From: Pseudidiomarina insulisalsae
GTDB lineage: Bacteria; Pseudomonadota; Gammaproteobacteria; Enterobacterales; Alteromonadaceae
Length of the DNA stretch: 64,000 nucleotides
NCBI RefSeq assembly: GCF_003987065.1
Contig: NZ_PIPY01000009.1
Location: forward strand, 1-64,000
Direction of reading: 5' to 3'
The notes beneath the pieces were generated by a model. The model was not told the origin of the DNA and did not search any database. It was given only the letters and a program-made list of their open reading frames with translations. This document shows positions 28,498 through 46,239 of this stretch, piece by piece (within the stretch, counting starts at the first letter, position 1; the number at the start of each line of letters is the position of its first letter). A program made the translations under genes and the position numbers.

Positions 28498-29427
28498 CTA
28501 AATATTCAGCAGCAGAAAACCAATACCGATGCGATTTTGGCGGTGGTTGTAATCGAGCAGGGTTTCGCCATAACCAGAGAAAATCTGAATATAAAAACGC
28601 AGTCCGTCAGGCTTGTTATGATTGACCGGGTGGGTGAAATCAAACTGCCACGAGCCACGATCCCATGACAGCTCACGGGTAATGCGAGTGAGACTATAGG
28701 TACTCACGTCATGGCGCCACGAGAACCGATTTTCGAAATTGCCGCGATAACGCACCAGATTAGGGTTGTCGTCATCATCGCCGGTCTCATTTACGCGCTG
28801 CTTATACGTTGTTTCCCACAATACGTTGCCCCATTGCACCGCGCCGCCGAAATGAAAGTAATTCCAGCTGCGCGAGGAAGGCTTACGTTGGCCATTGGAC
28901 TCATGCGCAAAACCAAACTTCGCAAAGCGTACTTGTGCGGGCCCGGGAATAAAGTCGAGTTCTTCTGTCCATGGCAACACATAGAACACGTCGGGGTTAT
29001 AGTTTGTACTGCGAAACGGCGATGAGTCATCGCTGTTCCATGCCTGCCATAATGAGGTCTGCGTGTAAGACACCCATAAGTCACCGTTAGGTAACAGCAG
29101 GTTCTCGAATAGCTTGGTGCGCAATGAGATCTGTAGCTTCACCTCGTTCGGCTTGTAGCTCTCTAGCCGCTCTGAGGGCCCCCGCGTGGGCGACTCGGGT
29201 TGCACATTAATATCGGAGCTGTGATGAACCGGTAAAATAAAGTTTGGCTTATAAGTGCGTAGCTCAAACACACCACGTTTGTGCTCCTCGTCAAGCTCCC
29301 AGAACCGAGCAACCAGGTCTTCGGTGCCAAACTCTTCCCAGGTCAGATCTCGCTCCTGTGCGCCAGCGCTCAGTGGCAATGCCGCCACTACAAAAAAACC
29401 GCAAAGCAGCGACACTACGCGGCTCAT
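28498..29427 (-). CDS. pldA: Outer-membrane phospholipase A (PldA)
   Basis: This beta-barrel protein has about 309 residues and a signal peptide ending in SAGAQ. The OMPLA catalytic triad segments are present: AHESNGQ (His and Ser) and RSWNYFHF (Asn). The barrel ends in FLLLNI. It hydrolyses phospholipids misplaced in the outer leaflet after membrane damage. The frame is open to 29505, but ATG 29427 has a GGAAAG site and starts the signal peptide. It begins one base after the stop of the upstream oxidoreductase gene. Confidence 0.9.
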   Translation of the reverse strand: MSRVVSLLCGFFVVAALPLSAGAQERDLTWEEFGTEDLVARFWELDEEHKRGVFELRTYKPNFILPVHHSSDINVQPESPTRGPSERLESYKPNEVKLQISLRTKLFENLLLPNGDLWVSYTQTSLWQAWNSDDSSPFRSTNYNPDVFYVLPWTEELDFIPGPAQVRFAKFGFAHESNGQRKPSSRSWNYFHFGGAVQWGNVLWETTYKQRVNETGDDDDNPNLVRYRGNFENRFSWRHDVSTYSLTRITRELSWDRGSWQFDFTHPVNHNKPDGLRFYIQIFSGYGETLLDYNHRQNRIGIGFLLLNI

Positions 29428-38495: not shown

Positions 38496-40637
38496 ATGTC
38501 GATTAAAAAAGTGCTCTTTATTGCGGTTATAGCGGCATCGTTTGCCAGTATCTTCATTTACGATCTGACCGATTATTTAACCCTTGAGCAACTTAAGCAG
38601 CAGCAACAGGCGCTCAATCAGCTTTTTGCCGAGCGCCCGTTATTTATGTTTTCGCTGTACTTCCTGATTTATGTCGTCAGTGCCGCTTTATCATTGCCAG
38701 GGGCAACCGTTCTCACTGTCGGCGCGGGTGCGATATTCGGTTTTGGCTGGGGTCTGTTACTGGCTTCTTTCGCAAGTTCTGTGGGCGCTTTATTGGCCTT
38801 TTTAAGCGCCCGGTGGTTGTTACATGACTGGGTACAAAAGAAGTTCAGCAACCGGCTGAAGGCAATCAATGCCGGCATTGAGCGTGAAGGTGCGTTTTAC
38901 CTGCTCAGCTTGCGTCTGGTACCGCTGTTTCCGTTCTTTGTCATTAACCTGGTGATGGGTCTGACGAAAATCAAAGCCCGGACCTATTACTGGGTCAGCC
39001 AGGTGGGTATGTTGCTGGCCACCGCCGTCTTCGTGAACGCGGGTACCCAACTGGCACAGGTCGAAAAATTGGGCGACATTCTCTCGCTGGACATGTTAAT
39101 TGCCCTGATTTTACTCGCGCTGGTACCCATCATGGCCAAATTCGTGTTGTCGTTTCTTAAATATCAACGCGCCTACCGGGGCTATAGCAAACCCAAAACT
39201 TTTGATAATAATCTGATTGTTATTGGTGCAGGCTCTGCTGGGTTGGTAAGTGCTTACATAGCGGCTGCAGTCAAAGCCAAAGTCACGTTAATTGAAAAAG
39301 ACAAAATGGGCGGCGACTGTCTCAATACCGGTTGTGTGCCGTCTAAGTCGTTGCTGCATGTGGCAAAAAGTATCCGACAGACGCGTGACGCGCAGGCGCT
39401 AGGGGTCAATAGCCAAGTTAAAGATATCGATTTTGGCAAGGTCATGGATAAGGTCGCCGAAGTCATCGCGAAAATAGCGCCCCATGACTCTGTTGAACGC
39501 TACACCGATTTAGGTGTGAATGTAGTAAACGGCGAAGCGAAGGTGGTTACCCCCTGGGAGGTTGAAGTGAGAACTGCAGAAGGCACGCAGACGCTGACCT
39601 CACGCAGTATTATTATTGCCACCGGGGCGCGGCCACTGGTTCCCGATTTTCCCGGCATTGATAAGCTCGACTACCTCACTTCCGAAAATTTATGGCAGCT
39701 ACGCGACCTTCCTAAGCGCTTGTTAGTGCTTGGTGGCGGACCCATTGGCTGTGAACTGGCGCAAGCCTTCCGCTTACTGGGCAGTGAGGTCACCATTGTG
39801 GAAATGGGTCCACGCGTACTTGCCAACGATGACACCGATAGTGCCGCGTTCGTACAGCACCAGTTGCGTGAAGACGGTATTGATTTGCGCTTGAATCATA
39901 AAGCTAAACGTTTTGTCGAAGAAGACGGTGAGTGGCAGCTCATAGCTGAACATGAACAAGAAGAGGTGAAGCTTGGTTTTGAGCGGGTACTGATCGCGCT
40001 CGGCCGTAGTGCAAATACCAGCGGATTTGGTTTAGAAGAGCTGGGCGTCAAGATGGATAAGACCTTGCAGCTGGACGAGCTACTCCAAACCAATTACCCG
40101 AATATCTATGCCTGTGGCGATGTGGCCGGCCCTTACCAGTTTACCCATGTCGCGTCACATCAGGCCTGGTATGCCGCCGTCAATGCGCTGTTTACGCCGT
40201 TTAAGAGCTTCCGGGTCGATTACTCGGTGATCCCATGGGTAACTTATACGACACCTGAGGTGGCGACGGTGGGGCTTACGGAAGCCGAGGCAGAGCGTGT
40301 CGGTAAAGAGTATGAAGTGACCGAATACGATATCAGTGATCTGGACCGGGCCATTGCCGAACATCAGGCGTACGGAAGGATTAAAGTGCTGACCGAACCA
40401 GGCAAAGACAAAATTCTGGGAGTGAACATTGTTGGTGCGCAGGCGGGGGAGTTACTTGCTGAGTATGTGCTGGCAATGAAGCACAATATCGGCTTGAATA
40501 AGATCTTAGGTACCATTCATAGTTATCCGACCATGGCTGAGGCCAACAAATATGTGGCGGGTAACTGGAAACGCGCGCATGCACCAGAGAAGTTACTGGC
40601 GTGGGTGGAAAAATTCCATCGCTGGCGCCGTGCATAG
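38496..40637 (+). CDS. VTT-domain / flavoprotein disulfide reductase fusion
   Basis: The 713-residue protein has two parts. Residues 1-225 form a TVP38/TMEM64 (VTT, DedA-like) membrane domain with GAGAIFGFGWG and LRLVPLFPFFVINLVMG. Residues 240-713 are a dihydrolipoamide-dehydrogenase/mercuric-reductase-like enzyme with VIGAGSAGL, the redox pair GGDCLNTGCVPSK, a second nucleotide site LGGGPIGCEL and YACGDVAGP. The C-terminal catalytic histidine region reads HSYPTMAEA. Similar fusions occur in other marine gammaproteobacteria. The substrate is unknown, and the fusion places a disulfide reductase at the inner membrane. Confidence 0.9.
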   Translation: MSIKKVLFIAVIAASFASIFIYDLTDYLTLEQLKQQQQALNQLFAERPLFMFSLYFLIYVVSAALSLPGATVLTVGAGAIFGFGWGLLLASFASSVGALLAFLSARWLLHDWVQKKFSNRLKAINAGIEREGAFYLLSLRLVPLFPFFVINLVMGLTKIKARTYYWVSQVGMLLATAVFVNAGTQLAQVEKLGDILSLDMLIALILLALVPIMAKFVLSFLKYQRAYRGYSKPKTFDNNLIVIGAGSAGLVSAYIAAAVKAKVTLIEKDKMGGDCLNTGCVPSKSLLHVAKSIRQTRDAQALGVNSQVKDIDFGKVMDKVAEVIAKIAPHDSVERYTDLGVNVVNGEAKVVTPWEVEVRTAEGTQTLTSRSIIIATGARPLVPDFPGIDKLDYLTSENLWQLRDLPKRLLVLGGGPIGCELAQAFRLLGSEVTIVEMGPRVLANDDTDSAAFVQHQLREDGIDLRLNHKAKRFVEEDGEWQLIAEHEQEEVKLGFERVLIALGRSANTSGFGLEELGVKMDKTLQLDELLQTNYPNIYACGDVAGPYQFTHVASHQAWYAAVNALFTPFKSFRVDYSVIPWVTYTTPEVATVGLTEAEAERVGKEYEVTEYDISDLDRAIAEHQAYGRIKVLTEPGKDKILGVNIVGAQAGELLAEYVLAMKHNIGLNKILGTIHSYPTMAEANKYVAGNWKRAHAPEKLLAWVEKFHRWRRA

Positions 40638-41249: not shown

Positions 41250-41932
41250 GCAAATTTATAGTGGGCACCGGCAAGGTTACCACGCCATACCCACTGCCAC
41301 TGACCGTCCATTTGCCAGCCGATTTCAGCGAAGTGGGGGATTTGCATGCCCGCTACCTCGCGGTAGTCGGCAATACGTCCACGCCAGGGCATACGCCTGT
41401 AAGTTTTACCGACACGGGCGAAACGTCCGGGACAAAAAACCTCTTTGATCGCGCCGTTACTGGCAAAGGTAAACTCCAGCTCGACCTCAAGCTCGCCATG
41501 TTCAAGGTGCGCAATGGCGCGCTCGTCATCAACTGCCCGCCACTTTACCCCATTCTCGGGTAACAAGTTGGTCGGAAACCAGACGCCCTCGGCAAGAAAG
41601 CGATGCATGGCAGCTTCATTCAGTTCATAGCGGTCCTGGTCGCGCGCAATCGTTAACCATGAGAACAGCTTCACTTTGGCACTGCCAACACCAGTCTCGT
41701 ATTGGTCAATGACCTGCAGACGCAAGAAGCGACCCATCTGAATCATGGCGCGCCATTCAAAGCCGGTGGTCGAAAAGGTCTGCTCAGCAGTAAAACGAAA
41801 CCACTTTTGTTGGGTCATGTCGGTACGCAGCTCGCCGTACTGGCGAAGCTCAGCATTTTTTACTTGCCGGTAGTCCGCAGGAAGCGTAAAAGCAAAATAA
41901 CGTTGAACTGGTAAAGGTAAGTGTTCTGTCAT
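41246..41932 (-). CDS. Uncharacterized protein (DUF6544/DUF6920-like)
   Basis: The 228-residue protein has no signal peptide or membrane helix. It begins LPLPVQRYFAFTLP, then MTQQKWFRFTAEQTFSTTGFEW, and shows alternating hydrophobic strands typical of a beta-rich lipid-binding fold. It resembles the DUF6544/DUF6920 proteins found beside membrane protein genes, but I cannot assign a function. It is a single gene. Confidence 0.7.
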   Translation of the reverse strand: MTEHLPLPVQRYFAFTLPADYRQVKNAELRQYGELRTDMTQQKWFRFTAEQTFSTTGFEWRAMIQMGRFLRLQVIDQYETGVGSAKVKLFSWLTIARDQDRYELNEAAMHRFLAEGVWFPTNLLPENGVKWRAVDDERAIAHLEHGELEVELEFTFASNGAIKEVFCPGRFARVGKTYRRMPWRGRIADYREVAGMQIPHFAEIGWQMDGQWQWVWRGNLAGAHYKFA

Positions 41933-41995
41933 CGCGATAGTTTCCTGTTAAAATAGCCGCTGATTTTAGTGTAGCGGTTATTTAACGGGAAACAG

Positions 41996-42631
41996 ATGAG
42001 TAGTTGTTGCGGTATAGATACCCAAGCCAAACTTGATAGCGCCCAACGTAAATTGTTGTGGACAGTACTGATTCTGAATGCAGCGATGTTTTTCGTTGAA
42101 TTTATTGCAGGTTGGATCGCGGAATCAAGCGGTCTGATTGCCGATTCGCTTGATATGTTGGCGGATGCTTTGGTTTACTCAGTAAGCCTCTACACAGTGG
42201 GTAAAACCTTGCGTCACAAGGCCAATGCCGCGCTGTTAAATGGCAGCCTGCAACTGCTTCTTGGCTCGCTGGTGGTGTTTGATGTCATCAAACGCATTCT
42301 GTTTGGCAGTGACCCGAACGCAGACATAATGCTTTCAGTGGCGTTTCTTGCCTTGGTGGTCAATGTCATCTGTTTTGCCATGCTCTATCGCTTCCGTAAC
42401 GGCGACATTAACATTCGCGCTAGTTGGATTTGCTCACGCAATGACATGTTATTAAATGCCGGGGTCATTTTCTCGGCGCTGCTGGTCAGCTCGCAAAATG
42501 CTGCCTGGCCCGATTTACTCATCGCGCTTTTGATTGCCGGAATTGTATTGGTTTCAGCGTTGGGCATTGTCCGCAACGCGCTCCAGGTGCGTCGTGGAGA
42601 AGCTCAGCAACTTGAAGATTGCTGTGGCTGA
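41996..42631 (+). CDS. Short CDF-type cation transporter with Cys-Cys termini
   Basis: The 211-residue protein has the six-helix core of the cation diffusion facilitator family but no C-terminal cytoplasmic domain. The helix II site reads DSLDMLAD (Asp replacing the usual His of HxxxD) and the helix V site reads SRNDMLLN. The protein starts MSSCCG and ends DCCG, so both termini carry Cys pairs. This suggests a thiophilic or redox-sensitive metal such as Zn, Cd or Cu, but no substrate can be proven from sequence. It is divergent from the gene at its left and abuts a convergent DUF4105 gene. Confidence 0.82.
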   Translation: MSSCCGIDTQAKLDSAQRKLLWTVLILNAAMFFVEFIAGWIAESSGLIADSLDMLADALVYSVSLYTVGKTLRHKANAALLNGSLQLLLGSLVVFDVIKRILFGSDPNADIMLSVAFLALVVNVICFAMLYRFRNGDINIRASWICSRNDMLLNAGVIFSALLVSSQNAAWPDLLIALLIAGIVLVSALGIVRNALQVRRGEAQQLEDCCG

Positions 42632-42632
42632 G

Positions 42633-44462
42633 TTACCAATACCAGGACCAACCGAGCTGAATCCGCGATCCTTTCTGCCGGGCAACGCTTAGCCGAATAT
42701 CTTGTTGGGGTGCAATGTGCCAGGCCATCTCGCATCCCGCATACCAAGGCTCTTCCAGGCGGCTGCCAGGATCGAATTCATAACGCAGAGTACACTGAGA
42801 CCGCCAGCGATTTCCTTCAGATAGCCATTGTAATTGTGGTGCAGCAAGTATACCCCCGACATACGCCGAGGGGTCTCGCAACTCTGTCCTCAGGCTCAGG
42901 TTAACGCGTTCGTTCTTAATTCGGAAAGCGTGTCCGTAGCTGGCGGTTACTATGGGACTCAGATCATCAGCTGGTTGGCGCAGGCGATCGCGCTGCCACC
43001 CCAGCTCAAGCCCCCAGGAAGCACCACCATCGCCCGGTAGCCCCGAAACGCTCTCGTTAAGCGTATGCAATCGTAACAGCCAAAAGTGTTCCAGCTCCAA
43101 CGAGTTCCTATCAGCGCTGAGTCCCAACTCTGCCATGGTCAATGTCGCGTTCGGTAACCTTCCTTGCTGCCGCTGTAGCACATCATAATAGGCGGGACGA
43201 AAATTCATGCTCAGCCGCGTGGCGCTATCGCTGCCGGTGTCAGTGTAATCAAGGCCGAAGCGAAGCAAACCAGGTGCTTGTGCGCTCTCTGGGGCGCTGG
43301 GCTCAGCGAGCTGCCAGTCATGGCCTGTGGTCATGGGTAACAGCATGCGCTGGCGCAGCAACTGCTGTTTTTCGCGCTGTAAGCGCTGATGTTCCGGTGT
43401 GCCCTGATCGAGCTGGTGTAAGCGGTAGGCATAAAAGTCAGTCAGCACGTCGGCCACTTTTTGCTGACTTTGCGCCGGAAAATCCGTTAACTCAAAATAC
43501 CCGGGATTGCGCAGCCAGGCGTTTAGTAGTGCTTTTTCATCTGGGATCAGCTGCGACCAACGTTGTTGAAACTGGTAAAGGCGCGAAGGCTGCAGGTGTC
43601 GCTTGGCTATAGCAGCATGACCATCAATTGTGGCTTCATTGAGACGTTGAATAATATCTGCTGGCAACACAAAGGGATCGTGGCTTTGCACTAGTTGACT
43701 GTCAGTGACGAGTTCGAGCGCACGCGCCATATGATAGGCACAGTTACGTGAAGAGAAAAAATAAGCGTAGTCGGTCTGCAACAGCTCCCATAAATGCCAG
43801 ATCAGTAAGCGGCTTTGCGCAGGCGAAGTACTAAGTCGGTAATTCCAGAGGTTCCGTAATTCAGCCTCGGCATAATTAATATCATAACGGTAAAAGTGCG
43901 TGGTTGAGTAAGCGGCACGGTAGCCACCTACCAACCCTTTGATGATATAGCTGACCGGGTCTTCGTCGTGCGGTACGCGCGCACCAAAGTTAAAACTGTT
44001 TGCCATGAGCTGACGTGCGCTGGTATCACTTGTACTACCCACACGAATCAGTAAATGGCCGTAAAAGCTGGCGGGGTTCTCTAAAAAACCATCGGCAAAA
44101 ACAACACTCACGCTGTCAGGCGTTTGTCCGCCGAGCCACTGCATCAATTTGTCACATTGCCGGTAGTCAAAGCTGAGTAGCTGCTGCTGTGCCAGCCATG
44201 CCGCACGCGCGGGAAAGCGACACATTTGTTGCGCGTTCTCATGAAATAAACGCAGCGTCGCTCTTAGCTCGGCCTCAGCATCAACAGCGCCATTTTTAGC
44301 AAGAAAAAATGATGGCGTCTCTATCTCACTGGCGCTAGCCATTGCAGGCATATGCAATAATTTTTGCCAGGTACGGGCAGCCGCCAGTTGCGACAGGTCT
44401 GCAGCCATACTGGTAAGCGACGTCAACAGAAGTGCCAGCGCCAGCGTAAGCTTAAGTTTCAT
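42633..44462 (-). CDS. DUF4105 (Lnb N-terminal-type) periplasmic/outer membrane protein
   Basis: The protein has about 609 residues. A signal peptide (ending near TSMAA) precedes a DUF4105 domain (about 90-300) with FLENPASFYGHLLIRVG, NFGARVPHDEDP, the papain-like NlpC-related region and the SSRNCAYHMARALE segment. The C-terminal half is beta-rich with short strands ending in GWSWYW, which looks like an outer-membrane barrel. DUF4105 may be a cysteine peptidase or amidase-like domain (Cys in SRNCAY, His in YGHLL). It follows a DUF3015 gene and a terminator hairpin. Confidence 0.85.
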   Translation of the reverse strand: MKLKLTLALALLLTSLTSMAADLSQLAAARTWQKLLHMPAMASASEIETPSFFLAKNGAVDAEAELRATLRLFHENAQQMCRFPARAAWLAQQQLLSFDYRQCDKLMQWLGGQTPDSVSVVFADGFLENPASFYGHLLIRVGSTSDTSARQLMANSFNFGARVPHDEDPVSYIIKGLVGGYRAAYSTTHFYRYDINYAEAELRNLWNYRLSTSPAQSRLLIWHLWELLQTDYAYFFSSRNCAYHMARALELVTDSQLVQSHDPFVLPADIIQRLNEATIDGHAAIAKRHLQPSRLYQFQQRWSQLIPDEKALLNAWLRNPGYFELTDFPAQSQQKVADVLTDFYAYRLHQLDQGTPEHQRLQREKQQLLRQRMLLPMTTGHDWQLAEPSAPESAQAPGLLRFGLDYTDTGSDSATRLSMNFRPAYYDVLQRQQGRLPNATLTMAELGLSADRNSLELEHFWLLRLHTLNESVSGLPGDGGASWGLELGWQRDRLRQPADDLSPIVTASYGHAFRIKNERVNLSLRTELRDPSAYVGGILAAPQLQWLSEGNRWRSQCTLRYEFDPGSRLEEPWYAGCEMAWHIAPQQDIRLSVARQKGSRIQLGWSWYW

Positions 44463-44474
44463 GCGTTGATCCAT

Positions 44475-44506
44475 AAAAAAGCCCCGTACACCAGCGTGTG
44501 CGGGGC
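44475..44506 (-). terminator. Terminator between DUF3015 and DUF4105 genes
   Basis: A GCCCCG...CGGGGC hairpin (44481-44506) with further ACAC/GTGT pairing is followed on the minus strand by six U residues (44475-44480). The downstream start codon lies 12 bp beyond the U tract, so the DUF4105 gene has no visible promoter of its own. Confidence 0.85.
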
Positions 44507-44525
44507 TTCGATGGTAGTATTCAGA

Positions 44526-45026
44526 TTAGCTGGCCTGGCAATGTGCAACAGCATCAGCTGCGGTATAGTAAAGCGCTTCGGCTTTCTCAACCTGACTTTG
44601 CCCGGAGTAACTTGCCGTGCCCATATGGGCGGCATAGTCGGTACGCAATTTCTTGATTGCCTGAGGTTGTTGCGCTTGTGTACAGCCCATCAACTGTAAC
44701 ATTGCATTCAGATGCTCACCGTCACCAACCGCTAGCTGCTCCTCAATTTGCACATAGGATTCAGTAACGAAAATCGCGGTAAAGGTTCCTGCTCCTTCGC
44801 AGGTTTCTTGCGACACGGTAGCTGACGTCACTGCTGTAGTACCTAAGTCCCAGATAATATTCGAAATGGCTGCTGCCAGCCCATGATTAGGGAAAATCAT
44901 GGCACCGATACCGCACTGCTGCCATGGGTTCACGCCACCAAATGCGTTTGCCTGCGCTTTGGGTGCTGCAAGCATATTACCGGCAATTAAAACCGCTGCC
45001 GCAGTTACTGCTAACTTACGTACCAT
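44526..45026 (-). CDS. DUF3015 secreted protein
   Basis: The 166-residue protein has a signal peptide (ending near AQANA) and the DUF3015 start NPWQQCGIGAMIFP. It has four or five cysteines after the signal peptide that could form disulfides, plus TSATVSQETCEGAG. Function is unknown. The family often sits next to DUF4105 genes, as here, which suggests a shared periplasmic task. A strong GGAAAGAAGG site precedes the start. Confidence 0.9.
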   Translation of the reverse strand: MVRKLAVTAAAVLIAGNMLAAPKAQANAFGGVNPWQQCGIGAMIFPNHGLAAAISNIIWDLGTTAVTSATVSQETCEGAGTFTAIFVTESYVQIEEQLAVGDGEHLNAMLQLMGCTQAQQPQAIKKLRTDYAAHMGTASYSGQSQVEKAEALYYTAADAVAHCQAS

Positions 45027-45060
45027 GTTGTTATCCTTCTTTCCGTTGAGTAAGGTTAAT

Positions 45061-45633
45061 TTAGCACTTTGGCACAGTATTTAAAGCATGCTGCCATGCG
45101 CCTTCAGCATCGAAGTCTTTCACGAGCCCGCCTTTTTCTTTTGGCTCGGTAAATGCGTCCATACCGTGCTCGATCATATAGCTGGGATGGTATTCCGGCG
45201 CGCCTAACTGTTTAATGGCCTCGCATAAACCAGGTTCCGTCAGGCGTAGTTCGATGGCTTCCTGCATAGCCACCAGGTCTTCCTGTGTGGCTGCCTGAAA
45301 GGAGTTCATACGCATCACCATTAGCCCCTGATGTGCGGTTTGATCGCTCACCCGTAAAGTATCGAAAAAACCATAGGTCATGGCTGCGGTATACATGTCA
45401 GCCGCGTCAACATAATTTTCAGCCGCTAAACACTCTGCAATACCGTTAAAAATGACAACTGGGGTCATTTTTGCATTCAGCTCGCTAAGCTGCAGACATC
45501 CAATTTGCTCGGTGGGCTTTAAATTCCCTTCCGTTTCATAATTCTGCACCTGCTGCGCTTCTGGCTGAATACTCATGCCAAGGGCAACGGCGGCAATGAC
45601 CAGTACAATCAAAACGAGATATTTAGTCTTCAT
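45061..45633 (-). CDS. Uncharacterized membrane-anchored or secreted protein
   Basis: The 190-residue protein has an N-terminal hydrophobic segment (LVLIVLVIAAVALGM) that may be an uncleaved anchor, then a soluble helical domain with four cysteines (GCLQLSEL, IAECLAAE, PGLCEAIK and the final Cys). I do not recognise a family. It lies 34 bp upstream of the DUF3015 gene on the same strand, so it may belong to the same unit. Confidence 0.75.
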   Translation of the reverse strand: MKTKYLVLIVLVIAAVALGMSIQPEAQQVQNYETEGNLKPTEQIGCLQLSELNAKMTPVVIFNGIAECLAAENYVDAADMYTAAMTYGFFDTLRVSDQTAHQGLMVMRMNSFQAATQEDLVAMQEAIELRLTEPGLCEAIKQLGAPEYHPSYMIEHGMDAFTEPKEKGGLVKDFDAEGAWQHALNTVPKC

Positions 45634-45681
45634 AAAATGCCTTGGTAACTAAAAATTAAGTTCAGAATACGTGAACCCGGA

Positions 45682-45933
45682 CTACTTCACCATCACCTTA
45701 CCGCCAATTATTTTGTAAGCGGGTGTACCCCGAATCATGGTCTCGCGGGCGAACTCCTGACCACAGGCGGGGCAGACACCTACCGCTTGCGTGTGGTCTT
45801 CGACAATACGTTCAATGAAACATTTCACCAACGCGCCTTTGCCGCCTTTACGATATTTGTAAAGCGGTGCGCGGCACTTGTTGCAACTTATCTGCACCGT
45901 GCGAAGTGGTGGTTTCTTGCGAGGTTTAGCCAT
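45682..45933 (-). CDS. Small zinc-ribbon protein
   Basis: The 83-residue basic protein has two CxxC pairs (SCNKCRAPLY and GVCPACGQEF) that form a zinc ribbon. It may bind nucleic acid or a protein partner. I know no assigned function. It starts at ATG 45933. Confidence 0.72.
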   Translation of the reverse strand: MAKPRKKPPLRTVQISCNKCRAPLYKYRKGGKGALVKCFIERIVEDHTQAVGVCPACGQEFARETMIRGTPAYKIIGGKVMVK

Positions 45934-45993
45934 GCCGGAACATGTTAATGACTGGCATGGCTAATGCAAGGCAAGTGTCAGCTGTTGCTTGAA

Positions 45994-46239
45994 CTAAGCG
46001 CGCTTTAACGCCCGTACGATTACCAGTAATACAACGGCACCTATGGTGGCAACAATAATACTGGCAAGCAGACCGCCGTCGGTGGAAAAGCCCAGTGCCC
46101 CGAACAAAAAACCACCCAGTAGCGCACCAATAATGCCTATGGCAATATTGCCCAGCAGGCCAAAGCCGCCACCTTTCACCAGCGTACCGGCCAACCATCC
46201 GGCGATAAGCCCCACCAATAAAAACCATAAAAAACTCAT
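45994..46239 (-). CDS. GlsB/YeaQ/YmgE-family membrane protein
   Basis: The 81-residue protein has three hydrophobic segments and the family motifs GLIAGWLAGTLVKG and GIIGALLGGFLFG. These transglycosylase-associated small membrane proteins are stress-induced in many bacteria; mechanism is unknown. It starts at ATG 46239 behind GGAG. Confidence 0.92.
   Translation of the reverse strand: MSFLWFLLVGLIAGWLAGTLVKGGGFGLLGNIAIGIIGALLGGFLFGALGFSTDGGLLASIIVATIGAVVLLVIVRALKRA

Follow-up and report, generated by a model that had tools for sequence, protein, structure and literature searches.

We analysed a window of 64,000 nucleotides (nt) from Pseudidiomarina insulisalsae (contig NZ_PIPY01000009.1, positions 1 to 64,000; "the window" always means this whole stretch), in which two adjacent genes of the minus strand encode a DUF3015 protein and a DUF4105 protein and are separated by a terminator-like element. 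The pair had been proposed in an earlier note made from the letters alone, and both open reading frames (ORFs) were found in place, with both families scoring above their Pfam cut-offs. The first gene of the pair (44526..45026) encodes an exported DUF3015 protein of 166 amino acids (PF11220, 48.9 bits against a cut-off of 25). The second (42633..44474), called the enzyme gene below, encodes a protein of 613 amino acids in which three families, PF25225, PF13387 and PF25222, are above cut-off; PF13387 is Lnb_N, the renamed DUF4105. Residues of this large protein are counted from the ATG at 44474, which directly abuts the U run of the terminator-like element, while a second in-frame ATG at 44462, opening a typical signal peptide (MKLKL...), is preferred as the more likely start. 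A profile search of the whole genome returned one DUF3015 match and one Lnb_N match, and the three best hits of the large protein among named relatives were 59-60% identical to it over 601-606 of its 613 residues.

Predicted catalytic domain and barrel of the large protein

The large protein comprises a DUF7843 domain (PF25225, residues 29-97, 44184..44390, 70.3 bits), the Lnb_N catalytic domain (PF13387, residues 111-280, 43635..44144, 122.3 bits against a cut-off of 22.2) and a DUF7840 domain (PF25222, residues 401-613, 42636..43274), all on the minus strand as the rest of the pair. All three were matched in 78/78 homologues of our alignment A2, which has 78 rows and from which L151, L168 and L200 were left out. 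H140 (codon 44055..44057), C245 (codon 43740..43742), C85 and C107 are invariant in the same 78 sequences; the last two may be linked by a disulphide, in keeping with export.

An AlphaFold2 model was computed on these sequences (predicted local distance difference test, pLDDT, 93.8; predicted template modelling score 0.90). Aligned by VIA-align, residues 116-301 matched TseH (6v98) with Z 10.8 and a root-mean-square deviation of 4.2 (153/183 aligned), and the predicted catalytic domain has the fold of the permuted NlpC/P60 group (LRAT, YiiX, TseH, Tox-Act1), the His preceding the Cys with a spacing of 105 between H140 and C245. Thus the candidate catalytic His and Cys of the earlier note, the latter within the segment SRNCAY, hold up as invariant residues of a TseH-like predicted domain. 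A papain-like Cys-His pair in an NlpC/P60-type predicted fold could also belong to an NlpC/P60-type enzyme that is anchored to the outer membrane and cleaves peptidoglycan, but this seems most improbable, the order of His before Cys being that of the permuted group, which acts on lipids according to PMC12994826, and the Pfam match being to Lnb_N.

The C-terminal part of the model contains 12 strands (residues 403-612) arranged in a predicted closed barrel, the C-terminal strand having an aromatic end (the sequence terminates in WSWYW); what had been described earlier as a barrel-like C terminus is here a predicted 12-stranded outer-membrane barrel, supported by both profile and model. By VIA-align, residues 401-613 matched KdgM (4fqe, Z 13.6, deviation 3.4, 166 aligned), NanC (Z 13.5) and NalP (Z 12.3), as well as the barrels of the lipid enzymes LpxR (3fid, Z 11.7) and OMPLA (1qd6, Z 10.5), all of them barrels of 12 strands. 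Foldseek with the whole large model returned mainly porins and other barrels at low TM-scores, and sequence searches of the PDB gave no credible relative. The large protein is predicted to be located in the outer membrane and its catalytic domain would be periplasmic, because the number of strands is even and given the order of the domains. The window enzyme resembles OMPLA (PldA) and LpxR in having a barrel of similar shape; unlike them, its predicted catalysis lies in a separate periplasmic domain and would use a Cys.

The DUF3015 protein

The DUF3015 protein of the window is by its score a member of PF11220 and falls into a low-scoring group (about 32-53 bits), the other group scoring 156-172 bits in the family draw described below. 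Its residues C38 and C76 are invariant (78/78), and C115 and C163 occur in 71%. Conservation peaks at residues 51-70, a stretch that is largely poorly modelled (residues 43-68 are under pLDDT 50), and the C-terminal helices are well predicted; the conserved stretch may not fold alone and may need a partner or the membrane. Sequence and structure searches of the PDB found no solved relative of DUF3015, and comparison of the model with solved structures gave nothing above Z 4.1, its conserved part being badly modelled, so that a new fold is not implied. No functional description of DUF3015 was found in the openly licensed literature searched.

Co-occurrence and gene order

Lnb_N was detected in 33 genomes of a family draw of 98 and DUF3015 in 26, all 26 being among the 33. 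The same nesting was seen in a class draw of 274 genomes, where all 49 genomes with DUF3015 are among the 65 with Lnb_N (Fisher 1e-40, relatedness ignored). In 47/49 of these DUF3015 genomes both genes lie on the same strand and their centres are separated by less than 4 kb; 53 of the 62 DUF3015 matches of the class draw are so placed, and the other nine include several short or weak matches. The DUF7840 barrel domain was present in 49/49 DUF3015 genomes and in 56/274 of the class draw overall. A single-protein scan of genome contigs found no relative.

A set of named loci (the best 80 of 442 confirmed loci with an Lnb_N alignment) gave a similar picture, DUF3015 standing beside the enzyme gene on the same strand in 78, before it in 71 and after it in 7. 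The exceptions were L193, whose stretch stops 18 bases past the gene, and L136, which has no DUF3015. These 80 loci are mostly from Gammaproteobacteria, and also include records named Vogesella, Curvibacter, Emcibacteraceae, Kordiimonadaceae, Magnetococcales and Deltaproteobacteria. The pairing that the earlier note had seen in one genome is thus near-obligatory from the side of DUF3015, in both draws and among the named loci. Neither a lack of co-occurrence nor a model devoid of a catalytic site, the two outcomes named there as speaking against the idea, was obtained.

In the seven loci of reversed order, with the enzyme first (L167, L172, L182, L190, L192, L195 and L196), the gap between the genes is -7 to 32; the five that are present in the catalytic-domain tree (see below) form one group (97/94), so a single inversion may suffice to explain them. 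The seven genomes of the family draw with a DUF3015 match above 150 bits are the same seven with an Lnb_N match above 180 bits, and G174 and G209 carry one pair of each score class, the higher-scoring DUF3015 of G209 having an internal stop. Because the genes are linked, the matching score classes show that the two genes travel together and do not imply binding.

A recurrent terminator-like element

On the minus strand the arms GAAGCCCCG and CGGGGCTTT form a hairpin of nine outer and four inner pairs at 44509-44478, and a run of six Us can be read at 44480-44475. By its sequence the element looks like an intrinsic terminator, namely a G+C-rich hairpin with a U run directly after it. The last U lies 12 bases from the ATG at 44462, so with this start the strong hairpin and U tract that the earlier note had placed 12 bp before the second gene are borne out. 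Folding of a 91-nt region gave z = -2.42, with 7/200 shuffles equally good. A simple terminator scan missed the hairpin, its loop limit being 8 nt against the 14 nt enclosed by the nine outer pairs. The same scan listed 5 terminator-like sites for the region, with a shuffle mean of 5.6, and so showed no excess.

For the other loci we used a fixed criterion (a stem of at least 6 pairs with at least 4 G-C, a loop of 3-16, then 5 of 6 T). Hairpin and T-tract were found in 43/72 DUF3015-to-enzyme junctions of the 80-locus set plus the window, compared with 0.54 in all in shuffles, and in 38/50 junctions of a second locus set, compared with 0.23 expected; the shuffles for both sets were mononucleotide, keeping base composition and not dinucleotides. 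By clade, the second set had the element in 25/34 junctions of the higher-scoring clade and in 13/16 of the other. This set consists of 55 loci minus L055 and L059 (reversed order) and L071, L078 and L083 (no Lnb domain downstream in the stretch); its search region may overlap the beginning of the enzyme gene, and L092, one of the 38, has DUF3015 as a tandem pair, with the hairpin behind the second copy. The two junction sets overlap in some genomes (e.g. L054 and L135).

The element was also far more frequent in these pairs than in other co-directional ORF pairs, which here and in the codon scores below are long ORFs with little overlap and not annotated genes. At gaps of 30-110 it was present in 33/54 DUF3015-enzyme pairs against 8/70 others (Fisher 7e-9, a value that, like our other Fisher values, is too small since related genomes are not independent), and at gaps below 30 in 6/9 against 1/49. 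A chance hairpin was rejected on this recurrence between the same two genes across loci, far over both shuffles and other ORF pairs. The sequence of the hairpin varies among genera while its place is constant, 6-47 nt past the DUF3015 stop in 38 of the 39 loci scored; the distance from T-tract to start, with start codons chosen by rule of thumb, has a median of 22 nt in the window's clade and is at most 35 nt in 32/39.

A hairpin so close behind the DUF3015 stop is like an ordinary gene-end terminator, and terminators are sometimes present between other co-directional ORFs too. The terminator could thus merely end DUF3015, with the enzyme transcribed separately from its own promoter and the adjacency kept for some other reason; in the higher-scoring clade the gaps of 64-285 nt, estimated from the subset of loci kept by a frame filter, leave room for such a promoter. 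In most of the window's clade, however, the short space between T-tract and start means that a promoter with its leader does not fit past the hairpin. A scan for sigma-70-like sites listed none on the minus strand at 41500-46000, none of the few such sites of the window being on that strand, and order and adjacency are conserved across the class and beyond, which fits an operon. We therefore hold two separate transcription units to be unlikely.

Codon usage and expected amounts

When the two genes of 79 pairs were compared, the codons AGA, AGG, ATA and CTA were rarer in DUF3015 than in the enzyme in 76 and the GGT/CGT share was higher in 75; the C-ending codons of Phe, Tyr, Ile and Asn were higher in DUF3015 in 62 pairs and lower in 17. 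For the window pair their share is slightly lower in DUF3015 (0.38) than in the enzyme (0.39). We also calculated a codon-preference score in which ten synonymous families were scored singly, for loci with at least 4 other ORFs. Ranked against the remaining long ORFs of the same locus, DUF3015 had a mean percentile of 0.86 and the enzyme of 0.43 (66 loci), DUF3015 lying above the locus mean in 58/66 loci and the enzyme in 25/66. The codon usage of DUF3015 is like that of well-expressed genes and that of the enzyme is not. This asymmetry persists in 6/6 scorable loci of reversed order, and is thus independent of the terminator. Together with the recurrent terminator, codon usage gives indirect evidence that more DUF3015 than enzyme protein is made, which supports the suggestion made earlier that the larger protein is produced in the smaller amount.

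Lnt and OMPLA in the same genomes

According to PMC12994826, the lipoprotein N-acyltransferase Lnb of Bacteroides turned out to be a DUF4105 protein (on Lnb see also PMC12345273 and PMC13103446), and the same paper describes its DUF4105 clade as primarily, not exclusively, Bacteroides, with a Gram-positive branch. The window enzyme shares with Bacteroides Lnb the catalytic domain family and the conserved His and Cys, and differs from it in its DUF3015 neighbour and in that Lnt is also present instead of being replaced; the window enzyme itself carries DUF7843 and a predicted barrel. With this kinship and the Lnb_N match, the enzyme might be a strict lipoprotein N-acyltransferase that backs up Lnt or modifies, at the outer membrane, only some of the lipoproteins, which we find improbable. 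Lnt was detected in this genome (306.6 bits) and, at E 1e-30 or better, in 250/274 genomes of the class and in 48/49 pair genomes, the sole pair genome without a match (G259) being fragmented into about 430 contigs; on these counts a replacement of Lnt of the Bacteroides type was rejected. The other Lnb_N genomes of the class draw without Lnt (G109, G144 and G261) have no DUF3015. Moreover, the barrel would place the enzyme in the outer membrane, whereas the site of Lnt action is the inner membrane, ahead of transport by Lol.

In each of these three genomes Lnb_N is encoded by two or three genes (L208-L210 in G109, L211-L212 in G144 and L213-L215 in G261). The longer proteins of G109 and G261 (L209 and L214) are of another type, L214 having DUF7844 and L209 grouping with L214. 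Judged from sequence, the three genomes look like candidates for a true replacement of Lnt by Lnb in the class.

The PF02253 (OMPLA) profile had no match in the 613-residue protein, and the match in the genome is a different gene of the same window (28510-29310, minus strand, 259.5 bits), about 13 kb from the pair. OMPLA was found in 22/49 pair genomes against 47/225 others, and a replacement of OMPLA by the pair was rejected, as both co-occur here and in those 22 genomes.

Enzymes without DUF3015

Seven genomes of the family draw have Lnb_N without DUF3015. Two of them (G017 and G063) have a short form with open frames of 349 and 371 amino acids and no barrel, and the other five have barrel-type enzymes (L203-L207). 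In 5/5 of the latter a glycine-rich lipoprotein of ~120 amino acids, with a GGxxGSTTDxxxxKMW-like segment, is encoded directly upstream of the enzyme, within about a dozen bases (L203, 3352-3771, minus strand; L204, 3836-4192, minus; L205, upstream of 3861, minus; L206, 1782-2138, plus; L207, 1773-2135, plus). No Pfam family was matched by this lipoprotein at E 0.01 in the four loci scanned, that of L205 being outside the scan, and against the DUF3015 profiles only 18 N-terminal columns, corresponding to the signal peptide, were aligned, with a probability of 24%. In a catalytic-domain tree of 50 rows (29 from A2 and 21 others), which has long branches and unsure deep joins, L203-L207 group with both G144 enzymes (98/99), apart from the DUF3015-type rows. 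A similar small lipoprotein gene follows the enzyme gene in L211.

Two further cases were seen. The absence of DUF3015 from G164 (L217) coincides with the end of a contig. G130, with no DUF3015 in the genome, has a barrel-type Lnb_N protein (L216, 1487-3514, minus strand) that has lost the catalytic His and Cys (FGQ in place of YGH, ENGAS in place of NCxY) and is likely a pseudoenzyme.

Tox-Act1, the sister of DUF4105, is according to PMC12994826 an antibacterial phospholipase that cleaves phosphatidylglycerol (PG) and phosphatidylethanolamine (PE), whose toxicity requires H43 and C151; the same source places the genes of Tox-Act1 and TseH near secretion systems. The window enzyme is like these permuted NlpC/P60 effectors of the type VI secretion system (T6SS) in its predicted catalytic fold and in the order of His before Cys, with a spacing of 105 against 108 in Tox-Act1. 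It is unlike them in having its own signal peptide and barrel and in showing no sign of being secretion cargo among the neighbours scanned, no T6SS gene having been recognised among ten neighbours of the pair. The kinship with Tox-Act1 and the apparent excess of DUF3015 would suit a self-harmful phospholipase with DUF3015 as its inhibitor. We rate this as very unlikely, since the five barrel-type enzymes above have an unrelated small lipoprotein instead of DUF3015 and a setting near secretion systems was not seen among the ten neighbours scanned.

Neighbouring genes

A gene at 45061-45633 (minus strand), 34 bases upstream of DUF3015, encodes an exported-looking protein of 190 amino acids without a Pfam match. 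A three-gene operon including it was rejected, given the lack of a Pfam match and a zinc-ribbon gene that precedes DUF3015 in the nearest relatives (L123-L125). On the other side, a cation-efflux protein (PF01545, 211 amino acids, 41996-42631, plus strand) stops one base before the end of the convergent enzyme gene, and is shorter than the matched cation diffusion facilitator models of 282-313 positions. Further away, an ORF of 713 amino acids (38496-40637, plus strand) appears by eye to join a DedA/SNARE-associated-like membrane part to a pyridine-nucleotide disulphide oxidoreductase.

Interpretation

Lnb_N enzymes as such were already known. We found no description of the barrel-type pair with DUF3015 in the openly licensed literature searched, nor any paper there on DUF7840, DUF7843, PF25222 or DUF7844, and the main text of PMC12994826 makes no mention of DUF3015.

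We lean, with modest confidence, towards a cysteine enzyme of the outer membrane, an acyltransferase or a phospholipase, that is made in small amount beside an abundant partner dedicated to it, the ratio of the two being set partly by the terminator. The nearest characterised relatives of the enzyme are one acyltransferase and phospholipases. The pair would form a two-protein outer-membrane module, in which the large protein is the low-abundance enzyme and its 12-stranded barrel keeps the catalytic domain on the periplasmic surface of the outer membrane. If it works like Lnb, LRAT and Tox-Act1, C245 would receive an acyl chain from a phospholipid and hand it on, to an acceptor in the case of acyltransfer and to water in that of a phospholipase. 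The small exported DUF3015 protein, with its presumed cysteine bridge, would be more abundant than the enzyme and required alongside it, whether as acceptor, as activator or as an adaptor that handles lipids. The terminator would help to set the ratio, given that in the window a transcript covering the enzyme start codon would have to pass through the hairpin. In this scheme the pairing, the recurrent terminator-like element, the codon asymmetry, the invariant His and Cys and the presence of Lnt are observations, and the fold and the membrane location are predictions; we infer the reaction and substrate of the enzyme, the role of the partner and its contact with the enzyme, the read-through and the disulphide.

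A bolder version makes DUF3015 the dedicated substrate of the enzyme, acylated at the outer membrane by a route apart from Lgt-Lsp-Lnt; the glycine-rich lipoprotein would be the client in the sister clade, and a conserved leaky terminator would hold the enzyme well below its substrate. We consider this version possible, if rather doubtful.

Several observations weigh against a scarce enzyme whose ratio to an abundant partner is set partly by termination. Barrel-type Lnb_N enzymes without DUF3015 exist, L136 lacks it as well, and the conserved stretch of DUF3015 is poorly modelled. By the fixed criterion the element is absent from 29/72 and 12/50 junctions, and in the higher-scoring clade, with its wide estimated gaps, the space past the hairpin may hold a promoter. 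In the reversed loci (7/80) the genes overlap or lie close, so that no terminator can act between them.

With these points weighed, a barrel-anchored Lnb_N enzyme with a near-obligatory partner, present beside Lnt, points to a step in which lipids or proteins are acylated at the outer membrane of proteobacteria, and the recurrent terminator between two rarely separated genes offers a direct test of termination as a means of setting the ratio of enzyme to partner.

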